Positions 3,501-32,267 of a stretch of 64,000 bases of DNA are shown in pieces. The stretch covers positions 988,501-1,052,500 of the forward strand of contig NZ_CP050313.1 in NCBI RefSeq assembly GCF_011765625.1, in the 5' to 3' direction. Position numbers and translations under genes: made by a program. Under the pieces are notes generated by a model, which was given only the letters and a program-made list of their open reading frames with translations, was not told the DNA's origin and did not search any database. The DNA comes from Shewanella aestuarii. Lineage in GTDB: Bacteria; Pseudomonadota; Gammaproteobacteria; Enterobacterales; Shewanellaceae. Every line of letters starts with the position of its first letter. Within the stretch, counting starts at the first letter, position 1.

Positions 3501-3861
3501 CGATGGCGAAACCTTCTCAGCGGGTATTAAGGCCCTTGGCCTTGCACCGCTTATTGGTAAGCAAACCGCCGGAGCAGGAGTGTGGTTGTCGGGACGTAAT
3601 AGTTTGGCCGATAAGGGTATGGCTAGGGTGGCAGAATATCCACAATATGCAATGGATGGACGTTGGATTGTGGAAGGCCACGGTGTTGAGCCTGATATTG
3701 AGGTTAGCAATTTACCGTTTGCGACATATCAAGGTGAAGATGCTCAATTAGAAAAAGCCATTAGCTATTTAAAAGAGCAGTTAGCCCAAAGCCCTTATCA
3801 GCCTCTTAAGGCTCTGCCATTACCTAAAACAGGTAAAGCTGATGATATTCACGCTAATTAA
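586..3861 (+). CDS. Tricorn-type S41 protease with beta-propellers and PDZ domain, exported
   Basis: This 1091-residue protein is a large bacterial tricorn protease homologue, which trims peptides. An N-terminal signal peptide (about residues 1-25) suggests export to the periplasm. Residues about 30-670 hold repeated WD40/TolB-like blades (for example SPDSQFVAMTKAE and SKDGNWLYFLSNRD), the propeller gates of tricorn. A helical core follows, then a PDZ domain (about 795-860, with GDIIKAINGKPV) and a C-terminal S41 catalytic domain. Candidate catalytic residues are His750 (LHSQ), the nucleophile Ser972 in TYSDGE, and Glu1030 in VEGHGVEPDIEV. The residue just before the His is Leu, where archaeal tricorn has a Ser of the tetrad. 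The gene stands alone between terminators. Confidence 0.93.
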   Translation: MKLRPTSLGCLLAMGCLSSFLATASQSSNQGYYRAPALHDNTIVFTAEGDLWKSQIGDKVASRLTTQAAEEIDASISHDGQWLAYSANYEGATEVYVMPMAGGVAKRLSFENSRVRLQGWTAGGEVLYSTDNAFGPANYWVLKTVNPNTLQVTNLPLADAIEGVIDNQGQYVYFTQFGLQASGDNAKVYRGGAKGKIWRYQLGSNKEAEQLTSQHQGSVRQPMVWQDRVYFISDASGNDNIWSMQQDGSDIKQHSQYSDWQVRDAKLDNGRIIFQQGADIKLFDIATNRDQTLNVALSSDFPHRREHWVNDPMEFATSTKLGSNGEQVVITARGHVAIAQTDERRLVQIASPADSRIRHALLSKDGKWVYGISDASGEQEIWQYPADGSEGAKQLTKDGTTLRTSLTLSPNGRYLAHDDYMGNVWLLDLKANTNQKIMVNGEGLGPYQDIVWSPDSQFVAMTKAEIGQQRPQIVLYSVNQQKAQTLTSDKYESYSPSFSKDGNWLYFLSNRDFNATPSSPWGDRNMGPVFDKRSQIFAIALNEKAQFAFAKQTELSVKQGDSNSTSDSIVKVKVDWQGLPQRLWQVPVASGNYNRLQQTDKGLYVLDTNNQVSSLKWIAFNQNAPKVEVFADDIADFNVSNDGKQILLNKQSNPKELLIVAAGDKLPADVSQAKVNTQQWQLNISPMQEWQQIFEDAWLMHKGQFFDTQMRGLDWQATKAKYQPLLQRLTDRYELNDIFEQMMGELDSLHSQVRGGDVAKDSDAAKSAALGARLTLTAKGVEISHIYQNDPELPSQASPLARIEVDAKEGDIIKAINGKPVSNIAQVTQLLRNQVNKQVLLTLIRGREQHQTIVSPTDIATAAKLRYLDWVHHNADKVSQASKGEFGYLHLYAMGAGDIASFAREFYTNYDKAGLIIDVRRNRGGNIDSWIIEKLLRKAWAFWQPTHGTANTNMQQTFRGQLVVLADQMTYSDGETFSAGIKALGLAPLIGKQTAGAGVWLSGRNSLADKGMARVAEYPQYAMDGRWIVEGHGVEPDIEVSNLPFATYQGEDAQLEKAISYLKEQLAQSPYQPLKALPLPKTGKADDIHAN

Positions 3862-4241
3862 TCTGTCTATTTTATATCGTCAGTTAATGTAGATTTTATC
3901 GATTACAGCCCTATCAGTGATGGGGCTTTTGCCGTGCACGCAAGCGAACTCACCTGACTGAGCGGTTGTTGGATTGTGGGAGTACATTGAGTTAGTAAGA
4001 ACTGATGGTATTTCGGTGTATTCAGCTCATATTTGCCGTTATTAAGCAATTACAAATTAGCCCATGCTTGAATGCTGGAGGAATTATTAGATTATTCGAT
4101 TTGCTTTGTTGATATCGCTGTTGATACCCTTTTTATCTGATCTGGTGAAGTGCCACGACATTAATTTTTCATAAATAGAAAACAATCTGTGCGGCAGAAA
4201 TGTATTAGTCCTTAATACGCATTTATGCTCACGAAATGCGT
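3862..4241. other. Convergent intergenic region
   Basis: Apart from the terminator at 3907-3930, I see no gene, repeat or recognisable site here. It separates the protease gene from the convergent M14-type peptidase gene. Confidence 0.6.
3907..3930 (+). terminator. Intrinsic terminator after the tricorn-like gene
   Basis: AGCCCTATC and GATGGGGCT form a stem (one G-T wobble) with a short loop, followed by TTTT. Confidence 0.7.
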
Positions 4242-5099
4242 CTATTGACGATGATCATCAACAAAGTGGTTGATAAACAAAGTAATCGCGTCTCGATTAG
4301 CAAGCACACGCTGATCAAATGGCTGTTGCCCCGGTGTTTCAGTGCAAATGGCGATTTGACTACCACTTTGAAATAATCCACTTTCAAACGAGCTATCAAA
4401 ATGATTGAAAATAATCCCATCTTTCACAGGGCAATCGTCAATCTCACCATTTAGCGCAATAGGAAAATACTTACCTAAAGCATCACGTAATTGGTAGCTC
4501 AACTCACTGGGGCTGGTTGCCGATTCTAATGAATACAAATAACAATTGCTGAGTAATACATCTTCATGGCAAGTTAATAAACCATGCTGGCTAGCTTGCA
4601 ATAATGTGGTTTGCGCTAGCTGTAAAATATGCCCTTCCGCAGAGGTATGTTGATTAGGTTGAATGTGACCTGATTGGTATACAAAACCACGATTGGGATT
4701 TTGTAAAAACATATTCAAGCGATTACCAATACTAAAACCACTAGGATTAACTAGCGGCAAAATGCTCAGATTCACCTTGTCAGTAATGTTGCTGTCCAGC
4801 TGGGTTAATGCGTTCAATAATCCCCATGGGCCAGCGGCTTCTTCACCATGAAAACCCGCACAAAGTAAAATAGATGCTTTGCTGGTGGAGATAGAAGGTG
4901 ACTGATAAAACGCCAATGGATACTGGCGATTGATTTCATCAACATATCCAAGCACATGCTGGTGTAACTTAAGGCGCTTAACCTGATGAGCTAACAACAA
5001 CTCAAATTGTTCAATATTATTGGAGTGACAATCAAAAATGGTTGAGTGCCATTGGTAATTGGGGAATAACTGCGACATAAATTCATTCTTAGTAAACAA
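4242..5099 (-). CDS. M14-family zinc carboxypeptidase (AstE/MpaA-like)
   Basis: The 285-residue protein has the M14 signature: zinc ligands in GFHGEEAAGP (HxxE), a conserved LPLVNPSGFSIGNRLN segment, a third zinc-ligand region in LLTCHEDVL, and a probable catalytic Glu in AICTETPGQQP. Family members remove amino acids or acyl groups from small substrates, for example murein peptides in MpaA. There is no signal peptide, so it is probably cytosolic. The first ATG is taken, but a second Met at residue 8 (MSQLFPNYQW) is an equally plausible start. The exact substrate cannot be read from the sequence. Confidence 0.8.
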   Translation of the reverse strand: MFTKNEFMSQLFPNYQWHSTIFDCHSNNIEQFELLLAHQVKRLKLHQHVLGYVDEINRQYPLAFYQSPSISTSKASILLCAGFHGEEAAGPWGLLNALTQLDSNITDKVNLSILPLVNPSGFSIGNRLNMFLQNPNRGFVYQSGHIQPNQHTSAEGHILQLAQTTLLQASQHGLLTCHEDVLLSNCYLYSLESATSPSELSYQLRDALGKYFPIALNGEIDDCPVKDGIIFNHFDSSFESGLFQSGSQIAICTETPGQQPFDQRVLANRDAITLFINHFVDDHRQ

Positions 5100-5326
5100 A
5101 CCTTGCTCATCTTAATTAGTCGTTACCCAAAAGCCAATTCAAATTGTGTTGCTTTACACAATTGGGTTACTTAAAAATGACAAAAACAGCAATATAAAGT
5201 TAATAATGTTGTATTCTTGTTTTTTTGAAGTTGAATGCTTATGGCGATGACTGTTTTATTGGCTATATTTACTTTGAAATTCAACATTATTTGCTTATAT
5301 TTGCCGCACATTATTTAGGAGTATCT

Positions 5327-5908
5327 ATGACAAAGCCTTTATCAGTTATTGTTTTACTATCAGCCATTTTAGGTCTATCTGCATGTGCAACGGGTAATAG
5401 CCCTGAAGCTAAAAAAGCCAATGCACAAAAAGAAACTCAAGCAGCACTACAAGAGATTTATGCTCAGCACCCTGAAGCAAAAACTGCTGTAAATCAATCT
5501 GTTGGTTATGTTGTTTGTACTGGTAATAATACCTATTTATTTGCCTTATCAACCGGTGGCGGCGTTTGTGTATTAACTGAAGGCGGTAAAAAATCTTACT
5601 ACCGTTTTGCAACAGGTGGCGTGGGTGCGGGTATTGGTTGGAAACAAATGGCTTTCGTGCAAGCGTTTGTTAAGGCTGATGCGTTAAAGCGCTTTAAAGA
5701 GTCTGGTTATGAAGGTCAAGCTCAAGCTGAAGCCAGCGCTAAATATGAAGACAAGGGCGATCAAGCTTCTGCTAACCAATCAATTGATATTGACGGTGTT
5801 AAAACTTACCAAGTCAACTTAATGGGCGCTGCGGCACAAGCAACCGTTCAAGGTTACAAATATTGGAAAACTGATTTCACTGAAGACTTTATGCAAAAAA
5901 GTGAATAG
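5327..5908 (+). CDS. SYLF/YSC84-like lipoprotein
   Basis: I place the start at the ATG at 5327, preceded by TAGGAG at 5316-5321. The upstream extension of this frame to 5225 lacks a ribosome-binding site and would bury the signal peptide. The resulting 193-residue protein starts with a lipoprotein signal ending in the lipobox LSACA. The rest is glycine-rich beta structure (ALSTGGGVCVL, FATGGVGAGIGWKQMAF) that resembles the SYLF lipid-binding fold seen in bacterial YSC84-type proteins. The assignment to that family is by pattern only. It is monocistronic, with a terminator right after the stop. Confidence 0.72.
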   Translation: MTKPLSVIVLLSAILGLSACATGNSPEAKKANAQKETQAALQEIYAQHPEAKTAVNQSVGYVVCTGNNTYLFALSTGGGVCVLTEGGKKSYYRFATGGVGAGIGWKQMAFVQAFVKADALKRFKESGYEGQAQAEASAKYEDKGDQASANQSIDIDGVKTYQVNLMGAAAQATVQGYKYWKTDFTEDFMQKSE

Positions 5909-19873: not shown

Positions 19874-22672
19874 CTATTTAGTACAAAGCGCTAGCGCAAT
19901 TGATGGTGCAGGTTTACCTAATAAGTAACCTTGCGCATAATCAATATTATATTGGTTTAATAGTCCTAATACGGTTTCATTTTCAACAAATTCAGCAACA
20001 GTTTTGATATGCATTTGTTGGGCAAACTTTGCCACCGTGGCCACCAATAGTTGTGCTTTAGGGTCGCTGTCTAGGTGGCGAATCAGTGAACCGTCAATCT
20101 TGATAGCATCAATGTCTAAACTCAGTAAGTGTACAAAATTGGAATACCCCGAGCCAAAGTCGTCAATTGCAATTTTACACCCCAATGGTTTAACAGTTTT
20201 AATAAACTGCTCAACAGCGCGATAATCAGTTATTTCTTCGCTTTCTAATAACTCAAATGTCAACCTTGGGCAAACATCAATGTTGGCTGTTAATAAACTT
20301 ATAATGGCCTGCAAATTCTGGGGAATAGCTATATCATCTAAGGTGATATTTAACGAAAACTCATAGGGCTGATCTTTAAACATCGCAATTGATTTTTGCA
20401 TCATGCAGTACATCAATTGTGGATAAAGCCTTGACTGCCTAGCTGCTTGCATAAATTGCCCTGGGGCCAAGACTTGTCCGTTAGGAAGTGAAATCCGCAT
20501 TAAGCATTCAAATTTTATTGGGGTATCTTTCAATGGTTGAATGAGTTGGAGGTATGGTGTTACCCATTGATTTTGAGCCGCTTTAGCTAACATTTGGCTT
20601 TGACGCATATTTTCTTCAAATGCATCGGGATTGGCCATTTCTGCAGAGAAACAGCTAAAAATTAACCGTTGTTTTTTAGCAAGTCGACGGGCTAAGTCTG
20701 CATGGCGATGTAAGCTGATTGCCGATTGGCTTATAGCTTGTTGCTGTAAAGGTAGATCGGAGGCGGTATTAATGGTTAGATCCGCACTGATGTCAGGGGT
20801 AGTTTCTGTATCTGAGTCAATAATGGCACCGCCAATACTGACAGAGATATAAAATTTATTGTTATCGAGCACAAGGGCTTTATGACAAATATTATTTGAG
20901 AGTTGAGTAGCAAAATCAGCTAAAGCATCACAGGTCAGGCTTTTGGCCGATGCAGGTTTATAGGCGATACTAAATTCGTCAGGGCCGGTTTTATAAACGC
21001 TCCAATCAGTCAATGTTTGGCAATATTGGGTGATTCGTTCAGCAACCTCAATAATTATCGCATCACCCGAATTAATACCATAAAAATCATTAAACTCGCT
21101 AAAATCATTAATGTTGACTACCAATAATGCTGTCATACCTTGATCAGATAAATCACTGTATAACTTTTTACGGTTAGGCAATTTGGTTAGGGTATTAAAG
21201 TAGGCTTCTTTAAAAAGTTTGCAATTTTGCTCCTCAATTTGTTCAAAGCTGTCTCGTAATGAGTGACGCATTTGATCAAAATTTTCAGCAAGTTGCTGAA
21301 TTTCATCTTGACTATTAATCGACAGTTCTTGTGAAAGGTTACCTTTTACAATATTTTGGGTCCAAAAAGTTAATTGTAAAATATCCTTGGTGACAATTTT
21401 ACCTACCCGGGCAAATAACCAACTCGTTAATACCACAACGCCAGATAATAATAGTAATTGAAACATCAGCATGCGAAGCAATTCTGCGCCATAAAGCTTG
21501 ACCTGAATCGACCCCGCGTAATAGCCCAAAACCTGACCCCGTGACAATATTGGTTGCGTAAATTGGCTGAAGCCTAATAACCATTCAGCAGTTAATGTTC
21601 GAGGGTTTTCAACACTTTGTACCTTAGATGGTCTGACCGCAACGAGTAACTGACCGTTTTGTGCGTTTGCTATGGTTTGCGGTAATAATGCTGACCACAT
21701 TCCTTGCATAAAATACTCACTAGATGACTGAAAACCCAATTGTTCGGCACGTTGTTGTTGGAGCTGTTGATTTTGGAGGCGATGGCTAAGAGTGATCAAT
21801 TTACCTTGCTTATCTAACACAGCAAAGTCAGATAAGGTGATTTGAAATAAGCTACTTTGGGTTTTATCGACTCGGGTAGTTGCTGGACCAAAGAAGCGGC
21901 TCAAAATGTCATTTAGTTCATCTTGCTGATTTTCAAGTGCTGTAAAATCAATGTTTTCACCATTAAAAATTAGATGCATACCATGTATTGAGTCAATTAA
22001 ACCTTGTTTAATGAGCTGCCGATTCAAATGCAACTGATAACTAAAAAATAATAACTGAGCACAGATTAAAATTAAAATATTGCTCAGCACTAACTTGCGG
22101 TAGAACGGCATTTTTTGATGTAACAACCAAAAAAGCAGTGGTTCTAAAATGCAATAAAGTAGGAACGTTCCTAACAAGGCAAAAGTCAGAATTTGACTTA
22201 TTAAGGCTATTTTTGGCCAGTCAGACACATGTAACACAGAGTTTTGATCACCCCAAGGGCTAACAACTGTATCTGGATTGTTGGGGTCTAGCATCCAAGT
22301 GGGTTCAGGTTGGTTTTTAATAAACACGACTAGTTTATATTCAATTTCTCCTGGAAATGTCGGTAATGAATATTGCCATTCAATCCCGTGTTCCTTAGCT
22401 ATAGGCTTCAGTGCATAGTATGGGTCATCGCTATGCCAGTCACTAAAGCTGCCGCTCACATAAACCTTTTCAATTTCAGCATCTGCGGGTAAACCATGTC
22501 TTTGAAGTATATCAGCAGGCAAAGGGGTCTTAAGTTCAATTTGATAAGGTATTACAGCATCGTTCTGTAAATGTTCTACTAATTTATTTTGCAGTGGCCA
22601 CAACAGAATTAACCCACACAAAATTGCTAGTCGAATTTTCCACTTATGTAAGTAATGAGTAATTAGACTCAT
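19874..22672 (-). CDS. Membrane GGDEF-EAL c-di-GMP enzyme with glycogen-binding-like sensor
   Basis: The 932-residue protein starts with a membrane segment (about 11-28). Next comes a domain at about 40-150 (KVYVSGSFSDWHSDDPYYAL, WQYSLPTFPGEIEYKLVVF, WMLDPNNPDTV) that resembles the CBM48/AMPK glycogen-binding fold, likely periplasmic. Two more membrane segments (about 158-216), a second extracytoplasmic region, a further membrane segment (about 395-421) and HAMP precede GGDEF (about 490-640) and EAL (about 690-925). GGDEF is degenerate (TGPDEF, near 561-566), so cyclase activity is doubtful. EAL looks intact: ECLMR, ELLESEE, IDDFGSGYSN, IKIDGSL, VAEFVE, QGYLLGKP. Its likely role is c-di-GMP hydrolysis under periplasmic control. 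Confidence 0.9.
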   Translation of the reverse strand: MSLITHYLHKWKIRLAILCGLILLWPLQNKLVEHLQNDAVIPYQIELKTPLPADILQRHGLPADAEIEKVYVSGSFSDWHSDDPYYALKPIAKEHGIEWQYSLPTFPGEIEYKLVVFIKNQPEPTWMLDPNNPDTVVSPWGDQNSVLHVSDWPKIALISQILTFALLGTFLLYCILEPLLFWLLHQKMPFYRKLVLSNILILICAQLLFFSYQLHLNRQLIKQGLIDSIHGMHLIFNGENIDFTALENQQDELNDILSRFFGPATTRVDKTQSSLFQITLSDFAVLDKQGKLITLSHRLQNQQLQQQRAEQLGFQSSSEYFMQGMWSALLPQTIANAQNGQLLVAVRPSKVQSVENPRTLTAEWLLGFSQFTQPILSRGQVLGYYAGSIQVKLYGAELLRMLMFQLLLLSGVVVLTSWLFARVGKIVTKDILQLTFWTQNIVKGNLSQELSINSQDEIQQLAENFDQMRHSLRDSFEQIEEQNCKLFKEAYFNTLTKLPNRKKLYSDLSDQGMTALLVVNINDFSEFNDFYGINSGDAIIIEVAERITQYCQTLTDWSVYKTGPDEFSIAYKPASAKSLTCDALADFATQLSNNICHKALVLDNNKFYISVSIGGAIIDSDTETTPDISADLTINTASDLPLQQQAISQSAISLHRHADLARRLAKKQRLIFSCFSAEMANPDAFEENMRQSQMLAKAAQNQWVTPYLQLIQPLKDTPIKFECLMRISLPNGQVLAPGQFMQAARQSRLYPQLMYCMMQKSIAMFKDQPYEFSLNITLDDIAIPQNLQAIISLLTANIDVCPRLTFELLESEEITDYRAVEQFIKTVKPLGCKIAIDDFGSGYSNFVHLLSLDIDAIKIDGSLIRHLDSDPKAQLLVATVAKFAQQMHIKTVAEFVENETVLGLLNQYNIDYAQGYLLGKPAPSIALALCTK

Positions 22673-23978: not shown

Positions 23979-24333
23979 TGGTGGAGGCGGCGGGACTTGA
24001 ACCCGCGTCCAGAAAGCCTACATCCAAGGCGCTACATGTTTAGTCTCTCTTTTGGTTAACCAAGTACACTCCGAAAGACAGGATTGCAATTGGCGAGTCC
24101 GGTACTGTTTCGCGGTTCACCCCCGGACGGAGTTCCCTCGCTATCAAATGTAATATGACCATCTTAAATCCCTGCCCATTTGAGAAACGTGGGTAAGATG
24201 GCTAGCTAGCCTAAGCTGCTAGAGCGTAGTTATCGTCGTTTGCAACTATAACTGTGCGGCTTTTTACGAGGCCAACCGCCCCTCGACATGCTCCCAGGGT
24301 TTCGTGAATCCTGTCGAATCCAAAATCGCCCCC
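23979..24333 (-). ncRNA. ssrA: Transfer-messenger RNA
   Basis: The minus strand begins GGGGGCGATTTTGGATTCGA and ends with a T-arm (GGTTCAAGTCC) and CCACCA; the two ends pair as a tRNA-Ala-like acceptor stem (GGGGGCG with CGCCTCC). The coding segment at 24211-24243 reads A-NDDNYALAA followed by TAG, the degradation tag. tmRNA rescues stalled ribosomes together with SmpB, whose gene lies immediately upstream on the same strand. A TACAAT on the minus strand at 24344-24349 is a suitable -10 box. Confidence 0.97.
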
Positions 24334-26729: not shown

Positions 26730-27587
26730 ATGACTCATTTATTAGCAAGCCAAGCCCATGTTGATACTAAAATGTCTGATTGTCAGGCTGACAAGCTTGG
26801 TCGATTAGTTTGTGTTGGCACAGGAATGCAACTGGCTGGGCAGGTTGGTGCGTTAAGTCAAAGTTATATTGAATTGGCCGATATTGTATTTACATTGTTG
26901 CCTGACGGTTTTGCAGAGCGCTGGGTTGAATCATTAAATTCAAATGTATGTTCATTGCAGGGTTATTATGCACAAAAAGGGGAAATTAAAAATCGTCGTG
27001 AAACCTATGCGCAAATGGTTGAGGCGATATTAACCCAAGTACGTCAGGGTAAATTAGTTGTCTGTGCACTTTATGGACATCCTGGTGTATTTGCTTGCGT
27101 ATCGCACATGGCGATTAGACAAGCTAAAACAGAAGGGTATGAGGCCAGTATGCTACCCGGGATTTCAGCAGAGTCTTGTTTGTGGGCGGATTTAGGGATA
27201 GATCCCGGCACGAGTGGTCATCAAAGTTATGAGGCAACCCAGTTTTTACTTTACGATCATACGCCAGATCCCTGTTCACATTTACTGTTGTGGCAAATTG
27301 CGTTAGCTGGTGAACATACTTTAACTCAGTTTTCGACAACGTCCGCTAAGTTACAAGTATTGGTTGACCATTTAAGTCAATGGTACCCTTTGTCTCACGA
27401 AGTGATCATTTATGAAGCGGCAAATTTACCCTTTCAAATGCCTCGTATGGATAAAATTAAGCTGTCAGAATTAGTAACTGCAGAGCTAAAAGCGATTAGT
27501 ACCTTACTGATCCCGCCAGCTAAAAAATTAATATTTAATCAAAATGTACTTAAGCGCTTAGGGATCAGCGAAGTTGAGATTGGTTAA
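26730..27587 (+). CDS. sonM: Borosin alpha-N-methyltransferase, SonM type
   Basis: The 285-residue protein has the tetrapyrrole-methylase fold: SAM-site VGTGMQLAGQ (Gly30-Gly32), VVCALYGHPGVFACVSHMAI and LPGISAESCLWADLGIDPG. Residues Tyr80, Arg89 and Tyr93 (in YYAQKGEIKNRRETY) and Tyr115 line up with catalytic Tyr58, Arg67, Tyr71 and Tyr93 of S. oneidensis SonM as I recall that sequence. Borosin enzymes methylate backbone amide nitrogens of a precursor peptide; in the split type the precursor is a separate protein, here encoded 35 bases downstream. The first ATG gives about 22 residues before the conserved start; Met15 is an alternative, and neither has a strong ribosome-binding site. Confidence 0.93.
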   Translation: MTHLLASQAHVDTKMSDCQADKLGRLVCVGTGMQLAGQVGALSQSYIELADIVFTLLPDGFAERWVESLNSNVCSLQGYYAQKGEIKNRRETYAQMVEAILTQVRQGKLVVCALYGHPGVFACVSHMAIRQAKTEGYEASMLPGISAESCLWADLGIDPGTSGHQSYEATQFLLYDHTPDPCSHLLLWQIALAGEHTLTQFSTTSAKLQVLVDHLSQWYPLSHEVIIYEAANLPFQMPRMDKIKLSELVTAELKAISTLLIPPAKKLIFNQNVLKRLGISEVEIG

Positions 27588-27622
27588 CGCAAGATTACAT
27601 CTTAGTACAACAAGGAAAATAC

Positions 27623-27835
27623 ATGTCAAATTTAAACCAGTTTGCTCAAAAATTATCAGCAGATGCAGCCTTATTGGAAGCTTATAAGAAAGATCCTCAA
27701 GGTGTCATGCAAGCTAATGGCTTAACAGCCGAAGAAATTAAATTAGTCATGGCTGGCGATATGGCAGCACTAAAAGCCCATTTCGGTGATGACGCTTATC
27801 AAAGCTTTGTTGTTGTGCATCATCATTCGGATTAA
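27623..27835 (+). CDS. sonA: Split-borosin precursor peptide, SonA type
   Basis: The 70-residue protein has a helical borosin-binding domain (LNQFAQKLSADAALLEAYKK, DPQGVMQANGLTAEEIKLVM, GDMAALKAHFG) and a C-terminal core tail DDAYQSFVVVHHHSD. By alignment with remembered S. oneidensis SonA, whose Leu63 and Ile65 backbone amides are methylated, Val63 and Val65 here are the predicted sites. The His66-His68 triplet differs from the Ser-His-Gly-Asn-Gly tail of that homologue. AAGGA at 27612-27616 is a good ribosome-binding site. No leader peptidase gene is adjacent, so the fate of the modified tail is unknown. Confidence 0.92.
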   Translation: MSNLNQFAQKLSADAALLEAYKKDPQGVMQANGLTAEEIKLVMAGDMAALKAHFGDDAYQSFVVVHHHSD

Positions 27836-27837
27836 CT

Positions 27838-29586
27838 TTGTTGAAAAGTATCTTGTTAGGTTGGTTTTTTTCAGCGCTACTGGTTATGACCTGTGGCGTT
27901 GTAGCATCTGAACAATATTCAAACCAACTGGTTGAAGTTGATCAGTTAATCGGTTCTGATTTCCAACTAGCAAAGCAAAAGTTGTTAGCATTAGATGACA
28001 AACTTGAACAGTTTACTGAGCAAGAAAAAGCTCACTACTATATGTTGATGAGTTTGCTTCATATCTACTTGTCTGAATATCAACAAGCTAAAATTGCCTT
28101 GGATAATGCGCTTAAGGCATCCCCATCAGAAGAATTGCTCACTCGAATTTATCTTTATAAAGTGACGGTAAGCAATGGTTTGAAAGACTATGAGAGTGCT
28201 TTTTTAGAATTAGCCACTAACTTGTCTCGTATTGACACTTACCAAGATACAAAAATCAAAATAGCTTCATATATTCGTTTACTTAACGTGTTGATGGATT
28301 TATACGCGTACGAAGAGATGCTTAAAACCGCTAAATTAGTGTTGAATTTAAATCAAGGCCAAGACGTTAAAAGCGAATGCTACGCCATGCTTTACTATGC
28401 TGTCGCTATGCTTAAACTTGAAAACCCGCAAGAGTCGATAAGCTTATTTGATGAAACTGGGAGTTATTGTGCAGCAAATGGCTTGCCATTGATTGATATC
28501 ATGTCACAAAAAGGTAAAGCGATAGCGTATTTTGAGTTAAGTGATTTTAATACTGCCTCACGTTTGTTTGAGCAGGCGTACAAGCGATATTTACCTTTTG
28601 AATTTCAAGTTGAATTGAACGATATAAAATCTTATTTGGCTAATATTTATTTTAATCAGCAGGAGTACGAAAAATCATATAGTTACGCTTCTGAATTAGC
28701 CAACTTAAACGAAGATAAAGTGAATAATGAGGTTAAGACTCGCGCACATGAGGTGTTGGCAATGCTCGCCAGTCATCAAGGTGATTTTGCCAAAGCTTAC
28801 CAACATCAAGTTATCGCTCATGCGCTTAGTCTACAAGAACTGAATGAAAAAAAACTGAAGCAAAATGCTTATCAAATGGCGCGATTCGATAGCGCTGAAA
28901 AAAGCCGTGAAAATAACAACTTGATCCAAGAACATGAATTAATGATGAAGCAAAAAGATCTGTTTTTAAAAGAAAAAAGCTCATCAATCATGTTTTCAAC
29001 TTTACTTTTTGGTGTGTGTATTGGTTTGGGCTTACTGTTGATTACCGCTTGGATGCAGCGCAACCAATACATGCGTCAAGCACAGCGTGATGGCTTAACC
29101 GGTATTTACAATCGTCAGACGGGTCAAGATTTAGCTGAAAATGAGCTGGTACAAGTTTTGGCAAATAATGGCCATTATTCGATTATGATTTTAGATTTAG
29201 ATTTTTTTAAAACTATTAATGACCGATTTGGCCACGCTACGGGTGATTGGGCTTTAAAAAAAATCACTCATGTGGTTGAAGATATTATTAGGCCTTCTGA
29301 TATTTTCTGTCGCCTTGGCGGTGAAGAGTTTGTTATTTATATGCCGTATACTGATGAGTTAACCGCCTTTAATCTGGCTGAAACGGTCCGTCAAGAAGTT
29401 GAACGGATCAATACTAAGTATTCAGGTCATGATTTTTCAATTACCGTCAGTATTGGCGTGAGTGCCTTGAATAAAGAGGATCTCAGTTTAGATCCCTTAT
29501 TGAACAAGGCTGATATTGCCTTATATGAGTGTAAATCACAGGGACGTAATAAAGTGTTAGTGTATAAACCCAGCTTTGATGCTTAA
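27838..29586 (+). CDS. Membrane diguanylate cyclase with periplasmic TPR region
   Basis: The gene begins with TTG (27838 or 27841) just 2-5 bases after the sonA stop and lacks its own strong ribosome-binding site, which suggests translational coupling. The 582-residue product has a signal peptide or anchor (about 1-22), some 350 residues of helical repeats like TPRs (for example EYQQAKIALDNALKASP, KAYQHQVIAHALSLQ), a membrane segment (about 380-402, SSIMFSTLLFGVCIGLGLLL) and a C-terminal GGDEF domain. The active motif GGEEF is intact and the product-binding I-site RPSD lies five residues before it. It should make c-di-GMP in response to an envelope signal. Confidence 0.9.
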   Translation: MLKSILLGWFFSALLVMTCGVVASEQYSNQLVEVDQLIGSDFQLAKQKLLALDDKLEQFTEQEKAHYYMLMSLLHIYLSEYQQAKIALDNALKASPSEELLTRIYLYKVTVSNGLKDYESAFLELATNLSRIDTYQDTKIKIASYIRLLNVLMDLYAYEEMLKTAKLVLNLNQGQDVKSECYAMLYYAVAMLKLENPQESISLFDETGSYCAANGLPLIDIMSQKGKAIAYFELSDFNTASRLFEQAYKRYLPFEFQVELNDIKSYLANIYFNQQEYEKSYSYASELANLNEDKVNNEVKTRAHEVLAMLASHQGDFAKAYQHQVIAHALSLQELNEKKLKQNAYQMARFDSAEKSRENNNLIQEHELMMKQKDLFLKEKSSSIMFSTLLFGVCIGLGLLLITAWMQRNQYMRQAQRDGLTGIYNRQTGQDLAENELVQVLANNGHYSIMILDLDFFKTINDRFGHATGDWALKKITHVVEDIIRPSDIFCRLGGEEFVIYMPYTDELTAFNLAETVRQEVERINTKYSGHDFSITVSIGVSALNKEDLSLDPLLNKADIALYECKSQGRNKVLVYKPSFDA

Positions 29587-30611: not shown

Positions 30612-32267
30612 ATGACGGCAGAGCAATTAGTAGCACAGTACAGTAAAAATGAAACTGAGCAGCCACAATCAGCCAAACAATCAGATTTAGTCATTAATGG
30701 CCCTGACATTGCTGGGCAGGAGCAGATTTTAAATTCAGGGGCTTTAGCACTTCTTGAATCATTATGCAGTCAGTTTGCTGGAGATGTGCCGCAATTACTT
30801 GCTAAACGTAAAGAAAAGCAGGCACGTATTGATGCAGGCGAGTTACCTGACTTTTTACCTGAAACCCGTGCTATTCGTGATGGCGACTGGGCAATTCGCG
30901 GCATTCCTGAAGATTTAACTGACCGTCGTGTAGAAATTACTGGGCCTGTTGATCGTAAAATGATTATTAACGCCTTGAATGCCAATGTAAAAGTATTTAT
31001 GGCTGACTTTGAGGATTCTCTTGCACCGAGTTGGCAAAAAGTTATTGAGGGTCAGATTAATTTACGTGATGCTGTTAGAGGTGATATTGAATTTACTGCG
31101 CCTGCAACAGGTAAACAGTATAAGTTGAACCCCGATCCTGCCGTCTTAATTGCTCGTGTTCGAGGTCTACATTTAATTGAAAAACATATCGAATTTAAAG
31201 GCACGGCAATTCCGGGCGGGTTATTCGACTTCGCAATGTATTTTTACCATAACTATCATCAGTTATTAGCAAAAAATTCAGGACCTTATTTCTATATTCC
31301 TAAACTTGAAAGTCATATTGAAGCACGCTGGTGGGCAAAGGTATTCGCATTTGTAGAAGAACGCTTTTGCTTAAAGCCTGGCACCATTAAGTGCACCTGT
31401 TTAATTGAAACCTTACCAGCCGTATTTGAAATGGATGAAATTCTGTATGAATTACGTTCAAACATTGTGGCACTCAACTGCGGGCGCTGGGATTACATTT
31501 TTAGTTATATCAAGACCCTAAAGCGTCATGCGGATCGTGTCTTACCAGATCGTCAAGCAGTCACTATGGACACTAATTTTTTAAGTGCTTATTCACGATT
31601 GTTAATCAAAACCTGTCACAAACGCGGTGCCTTAGCAATGGGCGGAATGGCAGCATTTATTCCAGCAAAAGATGAAGCAACCAACCAGCAAGTATTGCAA
31701 AAGGTTCGTGGTGATAAAGAGTTAGAAGCGCGCAATGGCCATGATGGTACTTGGGTGGCTCATCCTGGTCTTGCTGATACTGCCATGGCTATTTTTAACG
31801 ACTACATTGGTGGCGATAAAACGAACCAATTACATATTACACGTGATGTTGACGCGCCAATTCGCGCTGCTGATTTACTGGAACCCTGTGATGGGGAACG
31901 CACCGAGGCTGGTATGCGTTTAAATATTCGTATTGCAGTTCAATACATTGAAGCTTGGATCCAAGGAAATGGTTGCGTGCCCATATATGGCTTGATGGAA
32001 GATGCCGCTACAGCAGAAATCTCGCGCACTTCGATTTGGCAATGGATCCAACATGGAAAATCATTATCTAACGGCAAACTTGTTACTAAAGAATTATTTA
32101 GGAACATGTTGGAAGAAGAGTTAGTCAATGTACAAAACGAACTTGGGGAAGAGCGTTATCAGTCGGGACAATTTGCTAAAGCAGCAGAGCTATTTGAACA
32201 AATTACCACGTCAGATGAGTTGGTGGATTTCTTAACCTTACCGGGTTATGAGCTACTTACCGCTTAA
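30612..32267 (+). CDS. aceB: Malate synthase A
   Basis: The 551-residue enzyme condenses glyoxylate and acetyl-CoA to malate, the second step of the glyoxylate shunt. Blocks seen include LPDFLPETRAIRDGDW, the DRKMIINALNANVKVFMADFEDS segment, FDFAMYFYHNY, and the signature GLMEDAATAEISRTSIWQWI. The length matches malate synthase A. TAGGAG lies 8-9 bases before the ATG. It is followed 84 bases later by aceA in the same direction, so the two form an operon. Confidence 0.97.
   Translation: MTAEQLVAQYSKNETEQPQSAKQSDLVINGPDIAGQEQILNSGALALLESLCSQFAGDVPQLLAKRKEKQARIDAGELPDFLPETRAIRDGDWAIRGIPEDLTDRRVEITGPVDRKMIINALNANVKVFMADFEDSLAPSWQKVIEGQINLRDAVRGDIEFTAPATGKQYKLNPDPAVLIARVRGLHLIEKHIEFKGTAIPGGLFDFAMYFYHNYHQLLAKNSGPYFYIPKLESHIEARWWAKVFAFVEERFCLKPGTIKCTCLIETLPAVFEMDEILYELRSNIVALNCGRWDYIFSYIKTLKRHADRVLPDRQAVTMDTNFLSAYSRLLIKTCHKRGALAMGGMAAFIPAKDEATNQQVLQKVRGDKELEARNGHDGTWVAHPGLADTAMAIFNDYIGGDKTNQLHITRDVDAPIRAADLLEPCDGERTEAGMRLNIRIAVQYIEAWIQGNGCVPIYGLMEDAATAEISRTSIWQWIQHGKSLSNGKLVTKELFRNMLEEELVNVQNELGEERYQSGQFAKAAELFEQITTSDELVDFLTLPGYELLTA

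Follow-up and report, generated by a model that had tools for sequence, protein, structure and literature searches.

A split borosin locus of Shewanella aestuarii adjoined by a TPR-GGDEF membrane sensor: a candidate peptide-signalling cassette

Peptide pheromones are rare in Gram-negative bacteria. In the comQXPA and agr systems of Gram-positive bacteria the signal and the sensor domain vary jointly and the output domain is conserved, and the Rap receptors are of a cytosolic Gram-positive type. Here we describe a locus in a 64,000-nucleotide stretch of the Shewanella aestuarii genome (assembly GCF_011765625.1, contig NZ_CP050313.1, positions 988,501 to 1,052,500; hereafter the window), which encodes a peptide backbone N-methyltransferase (MT), a borosin precursor, and a membrane protein joining tetratricopeptide repeats (TPR) to a GGDEF domain. 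Comparison of related loci makes it probable that these three genes form one signalling cassette, in which the adjoining TPR protein is the receptor for a borosin peptide signal, with pherotype-like switching of the two. The cassette resembles comQXPA and agr in the co-variation of signal and sensor domain and in its conserved output. It differs from them in its borosin enzyme, TPR sensor, predicted cyclic di-GMP (c-di-GMP) output and Gram-negative hosts, and in that we infer the role of the peptide as ligand.

The closest described borosin system is SonM/SonA of Shewanella oneidensis MR-1 (PMC8429565; PDB 7LTC). It shares with the window a separate MT and a precursor bearing a borosin binding domain, the active-site residues and the spacing of the methylated positions, and differs in the sequence of the core. 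According to the Discussion of PMC8429565, a final natural product had, as of 2021, yet to be assigned to any type IV split borosin pathway, and a word search of the main text of that paper returned none of the terms GGDEF, cyclase and tetratricopeptide. Two Vibrio parahaemolyticus cyclases have been described with predicted periplasmic TPR domains (PMC12282931, PMC12016518, PMC9303241). ScrJ and ScrL of this species resemble the sensor of the window in joining TPR to GGDEF, and the passages on them in these papers name no ligand.

The three genes of the locus

The features of the locus, all on the forward (+) strand of the window, are as follows.

26730..27587, +: SonM-type peptide backbone N-methyltransferase (285-residue open reading frame (ORF); homology to SonM)
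27623..27835, +: SonA-type precursor of 70 residues, ending in FVVVHHHSD (ORF and alignment to SonA)
27623..27781, +: leader, the borosin binding domain, residues 1-53 (alignment to SonA; limits from PMC8429565)
27806..27832, +: core, residues 62-70, FVVVHHHSD, with V63 and V65 predicted to be N-methylated (alignment to SonA; limits and sites from PMC8429565)
27838..29586, +: TPR-GGDEF membrane sensor, putative diguanylate cyclase (ORF, Pfam and motifs; TTG start at 27838 or 27841)
27850..27906, +: N-terminal hydrophobic segment of the sensor, signal peptide or anchor, residues 5-23 (hydropathy)
27904..28977, +: TPR domain, residues 23-380, presumed periplasmic from the layout (Pfam; co-varies with the core in relatives)
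28987..29043, +: transmembrane helix, residues 384-402 (hydropathy; a helix also in the structure model)
29080..29553, +: GGDEF domain, residues 415-572, with GGEEF at 494-498 and RxxD at 485-488 (Pfam and motifs)

A preliminary description of this DNA had proposed a stand-alone SonM-type MT followed, after 35 bases, by a 70-residue precursor, and both the coordinates, with 35 bases up to the precursor ATG, and the alignments to SonM and SonA agree. The MT aligned with SonM (PDB 7ltc) from residue 23 onward (416 bits, E 4.8e-124); its first 22 residues (26730-26795) form an extension with no counterpart in SonM, so the true start of the MT is uncertain. The precursor aligned without gaps to residues 1-68 of SonA (E 5.6e-17). 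The SonM active-site residues Y58, R67, Y71 and Y93 named in PMC8429565 correspond to Y80, R89, Y93 and Y115 of the window MT. Their retention, already claimed in the preliminary description, was borne out: they were invariant in all six aligned MTs, and of 95 Shewanella MTs 94, 94, 94 and 95 kept them, with a single sequence showing a gap at the first three positions.

The locus thus has the separately encoded SonM-type MT and precursor, the active-site residues and, by sequence alignment to SonA alone, the helical borosin binding domain as leader that mark a type IV split borosin. Homology and the kept active-site residues support the assignment of the two genes as SonM/SonA orthologues; they belong to a published kind, of which this is a new sequence member. 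By orthology, the MT would N-methylate the precursor core. L63 and I65 of SonA were shown to be methylated (PMC8429565), and V63 and V65 of the window precursor, which align onto them, are a reasonable prediction for the methylated positions. The tail FVVVHHHSD does differ, as had been remarked, from LVISHGNGD, given there as the SonA tail, which is the tail of the SonA-type locus L071.

The preliminary description was right about the MT and precursor, but ended the locus at 27835 and so missed the adjoining sensor gene, the best clue to function, which begins two bases past the precursor stop and belongs to the unit. The GGDEF domain of this protein was recognized by Pfam (E 1.6e-40) and carries the GGEEF and RxxD motifs, pointing to a putative diguanylate cyclase. 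A structure model of its TPR domain resembles peptide-binding TPR proteins, and a Rap receptor with its pheromone (PDB 8rsv) was among the matches, a fold resemblance common to many TPR proteins, which match one another widely. With regard to a relationship with the RRNPP peptide receptors (Rap, NprR, PlcR or PrgX), the matches listed by a TPR profile search at E 0.01 were other TPR proteins only, and the Foldseek match list was filled by GGDEF domains. A scan of the locus for promoters and terminators was uninformative (promoter-like sites: 10, with 14.4 in shuffled sequence; terminator-like sites: 4, with 2.8 in shuffled sequence).

Joint change of core and TPR domain in Shewanella

A SonM-like MT was found in 112 of 129 Shewanella genomes, and we read 107 SonM-type loci which, with the window, make 108. 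All 108 had a SonA-type precursor by profile (two precursors at 6 loci) and a downstream TPR-GGDEF homologue by tblastn. The sensor was an intact ORF with its motif at 95 loci, intact with a changed motif at 5, and interrupted or at a contig end at 8. The gap between precursor and sensor had a median of 6 nt and was at most 60 nt at 119 of 125 loci measured. Among all the borosin loci read, two tandem membrane GGDEF proteins follow the MT at L113, L116, L126, L129, L131, L134, L218, L219 and L225. Core variability, which the preliminary description had put forward as a matter for alignment of the Shewanella SonA homologues, was evident in the 93 different 13-residue tails among the 114 precursors of these loci.

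We compared the parts of the cassette across the 95 loci with an intact sensor, reduced to 79 non-redundant loci at <96% MT identity; at loci with two precursors we took the one closer to the sensor, and L145, with an interrupted MT, was entered with its longer piece. Median distances were 0.32 for the MT, 0.46 for the leader, 0.46 for the GGDEF domain, 0.73 for the TPR domain and 0.93 for the core. With MT, GGDEF and leader distances removed, core and TPR distances remained correlated (partial Mantel r 0.50, 2000 permutations, p 5e-4), whereas the partial correlation of the core was 0.03 with GGDEF (p 0.28) and -0.18 with the MT. For related sequences the significance given by Mantel tests is too high, and this contrast between domains carries more weight.

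Closely related loci were also compared pairwise. Of 195 pairs whose MTs were at least 88% identical (pairs that are not independent), the 63 with cores at least 75% identical had a median identity of 0.91 in the TPR domain and 0.93 in GGDEF, whereas in the 109 with cores <50% identical these medians were 0.50 and 0.84; 23 pairs with intermediate cores fell in neither group. We inspected the top 22 of the 195, ranked by GGDEF minus TPR identity. Pairs within the clade of L071 were 98-99% identical in the MT, 92-96% in the leader and 92-98% in GGDEF, yet 48-50% in the TPR domain and 23-46% in the core. DNA identity in this clade dropped from ~95% to ~50% near the junction of leader and core, and returned to at least 90% near sensor residue 313. 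A breakpoint fit found a core-to-TPR block in six of eight pairs, starting at precursor residue 40-63 (52-55 in four) and ending at sensor residue 277 to 428, reported as before the membrane helix. L063, L078 and L082 carry an extra upstream precursor of the other core type that runs into a longer tail, and their sensors are 96-97% identical to sensors belonging with the downstream core; we read these extra precursors as traces of past switches. Signal and sensor domain thus co-vary and switch together, as at pherotype loci, in relatives of the window; for its own VVVHHHSD type the nearest MT is 73% identical among the matches listed, and the evidence for switching comes from the relatives only.

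One alternative is that the sensor answers to another cue and controls the borosin pathway, and that the peptide is a metabolite with a different task rather than the ligand. Conserved linkage of the sensor is predicted by such regulation too, and no exporter is encoded among the cassette ORFs. We regard this explanation as unlikely, because joint switching of core and TPR domain with the other parts constant would not be expected if the sensor responded to an unrelated cue.

Less probable still is that the core and TPR stretches are one recombining or hypervariable block of DNA, joined by linkage with no functional tie. In favour of this view, the two stretches lie directly side by side, and co-variation with the TPR domain extends to the leader. 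Against this, the raw correlation with the core did not fall off with distance inside the TPR domain: it ranged from 0.62 to 0.79 over residues 1-380 of the sensor, peaked at residues 161-220, and dropped at the membrane helix to 0.32 to 0.43 for residues 361-580. It was low in the MT (-0.02 to 0.25 in segments along the gene), including the end next to the precursor. The same linkage also recurs in a second borosin family and in other genera. The corresponding partial correlations, for which MT and GGDEF were themselves covariates, were -0.03 to 0.08 for the MT, 0.53 to 0.75 for sensor residues 1-380 and 0.17 to -0.19 from residue 361 on.

Distribution, gain and loss of the cassette

The second Shewanella borosin family has MTs ~50% identical to the first, other precursors and other genome sites. 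Of the 41 matches listed, 36 were read, and the sensor was present at 34; one locus ends at a contig edge and one has a remnant. The precursors of this family (L147-L179) are alike in having an acidic tail and a PDVVC-like core, and several of its loci carry two precursors.

Outside Shewanella we read 40 loci from 31 of 76 genomes with matches, chosen for spread of family and genus before their contexts were seen. A sensor-like membrane protein adjoined the MT on the same strand at 33, where it either follows the precursor, at a distance of up to 1.15 kb, or immediately precedes the MT; at L249 it adjoins the second MT of the locus. Outputs were GGDEF in 25, histidine kinase in 7 (L229, L242, L247, L248, L250, L252, L253) and TPR alone in one (L246). 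Pfam was run on 20 proteins, 19 of them sensors or candidates, and the remaining sensors were classed by motif and hydropathy. Also at L249, one MT has at its end a small precursor-like ORF whose tail contains some six repeats of ASHKALIITPK-like units, possibly a multi-core borosin precursor. Wider searches yielded few further MTs, in 10 of 369 genomes of a class sample and 15 of 398 of a phylum sample, Shewanella included; of six loci viewed on one strand, two, L262 and L266, were readable, both with the start of a sensor and L262 with a precursor. Retention of the sensor by position alone is disfavoured, since it is also present in other genera and in the second family, which occupies different genome sites.

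The TPR part of the sensor matched 99 of 129 Shewanella genomes and none of the 17 lacking the MT. In the 15 of these 17 in which bamE was found, the stretch read around bamE held no MT, precursor or TPR homologue; L189 retains a short GGDEF remnant, and L188 has an unrelated-looking GGDEF protein beyond aceA. The distance from bamE to aceB was ~0.8-1.45 kb in 10 of the 15 and 5.4 kb in one, and aceB was not in the stretch in four. These MT-lacking genomes form six groups, explained by five changes under parsimony on a small three-protein tree, from which L193 was dropped and in which L196 was scored cassette-positive despite its cyclase alone.

In the window, bamE lies upstream on the opposite strand, and the next large same-strand ORF, starting at 30612, was taken as aceB by place and conservation. 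Elsewhere, a tmRNA gene (23979-24333, -; tag ANDDNYALAA) adjoins the ORF used as smpB, and an upstream 932-residue ORF (19874-22672, -) gave a second, weaker GGDEF match. At L063, L066, L069-L071 and others, a 589-residue protein with ~12 hydrophobic helices follows the sensor, ~2.2 kb past the MT.

Proposed signalling role

From the joint change of peptide and sensor in relatives we suggest a role for this peptide family in chemical signalling. The SonM-type enzyme would N-methylate the core of the SonA-type precursor, and the C-terminal peptide, from the same or neighbouring cells, would reach the periplasm; the cassette itself encodes neither an exporter nor a protease. There it may bind the TPR domain of the adjoining membrane protein, as co-variation and co-switching point to, and binding would alter the cytoplasmic output, which is probably c-di-GMP synthesis here, its place being taken by a histidine kinase in certain other genera. 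Core and TPR domain would change in step with each other, against a constant background of enzyme, leader and output. SonM touches mainly the substrate backbone (PMC8429565), and foreign cores are reportedly accepted by SahM, from another Shewanella (PMC11285071), properties that would let the core vary.

Several observations weigh against this proposal. The leader also correlates with the TPR domain (0.44), and linked exchange of the contiguous core and TPR DNA could add to the signal. The partial correlations of MT and GGDEF segments were pushed towards zero, as the whole MT and GGDEF were covariates. Three of the six fitted switch pairs come from one clade, leaving at most four independent, and in L068/L056 and L124/L095 no core-to-TPR block was found, the fit picking the conserved GGDEF end. 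The effect is weaker in the second family (partial correlation 0.40 with TPR, -0.26 with GGDEF and 0.35 with the MT, without permutation; 27 loci, left after reduction of the 30 taken from 33). In Shewanella, 13 of the 108 sensors have an altered GGDEF motif, an interruption or a truncation at a contig end, and L196 has a TPR-GGDEF cyclase at the bamE site (3639-5426, -) with neither MT nor precursor; the only cassette in that genome is of the second family, elsewhere. Outside the genus, five of the 40 loci lacked a sensor and two had a GGDEF protein ~0.65 kb away, and 5 of the 19 Pfam-scanned sensors or candidates had no Pfam TPR match. The wide matching among TPR folds limits the weight of the structural resemblance.

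A metal-binding product, as the preliminary description had read the HHH of the core, is very improbable and was rejected: VHHHSE also ends two environmental precursors (84% identical), making HHH a trait of the window lineage, but among the 114 Shewanella precursors HHH occurs only in the window and HH in 7 including it, and there is no metal or transport gene among the cassette ORFs.

The word "borosin" occurred nowhere together with "diguanylate cyclase" in the literature searched, nor was a borosin-sensor link with pherotype-like switching found there, although a further borosin paper may report part of it. For SonM-type borosins as a whole, we see roughly even chances that they are backbone-N-methylated pheromones of Gram-negative bacteria, acting through a periplasmic TPR receptor on c-di-GMP or kinase output, with pherotypes that swap core and receptor domain. 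Joint switching of a conserved sensor with the core points to a named receptor, which opens borosin function to direct test. If the proposal is correct, it would join a ribosomally synthesized and post-translationally modified peptide to c-di-GMP signalling in Gram-negative bacteria, and would give the Shewanella borosins a first function, one valid across several gammaproteobacterial genera.
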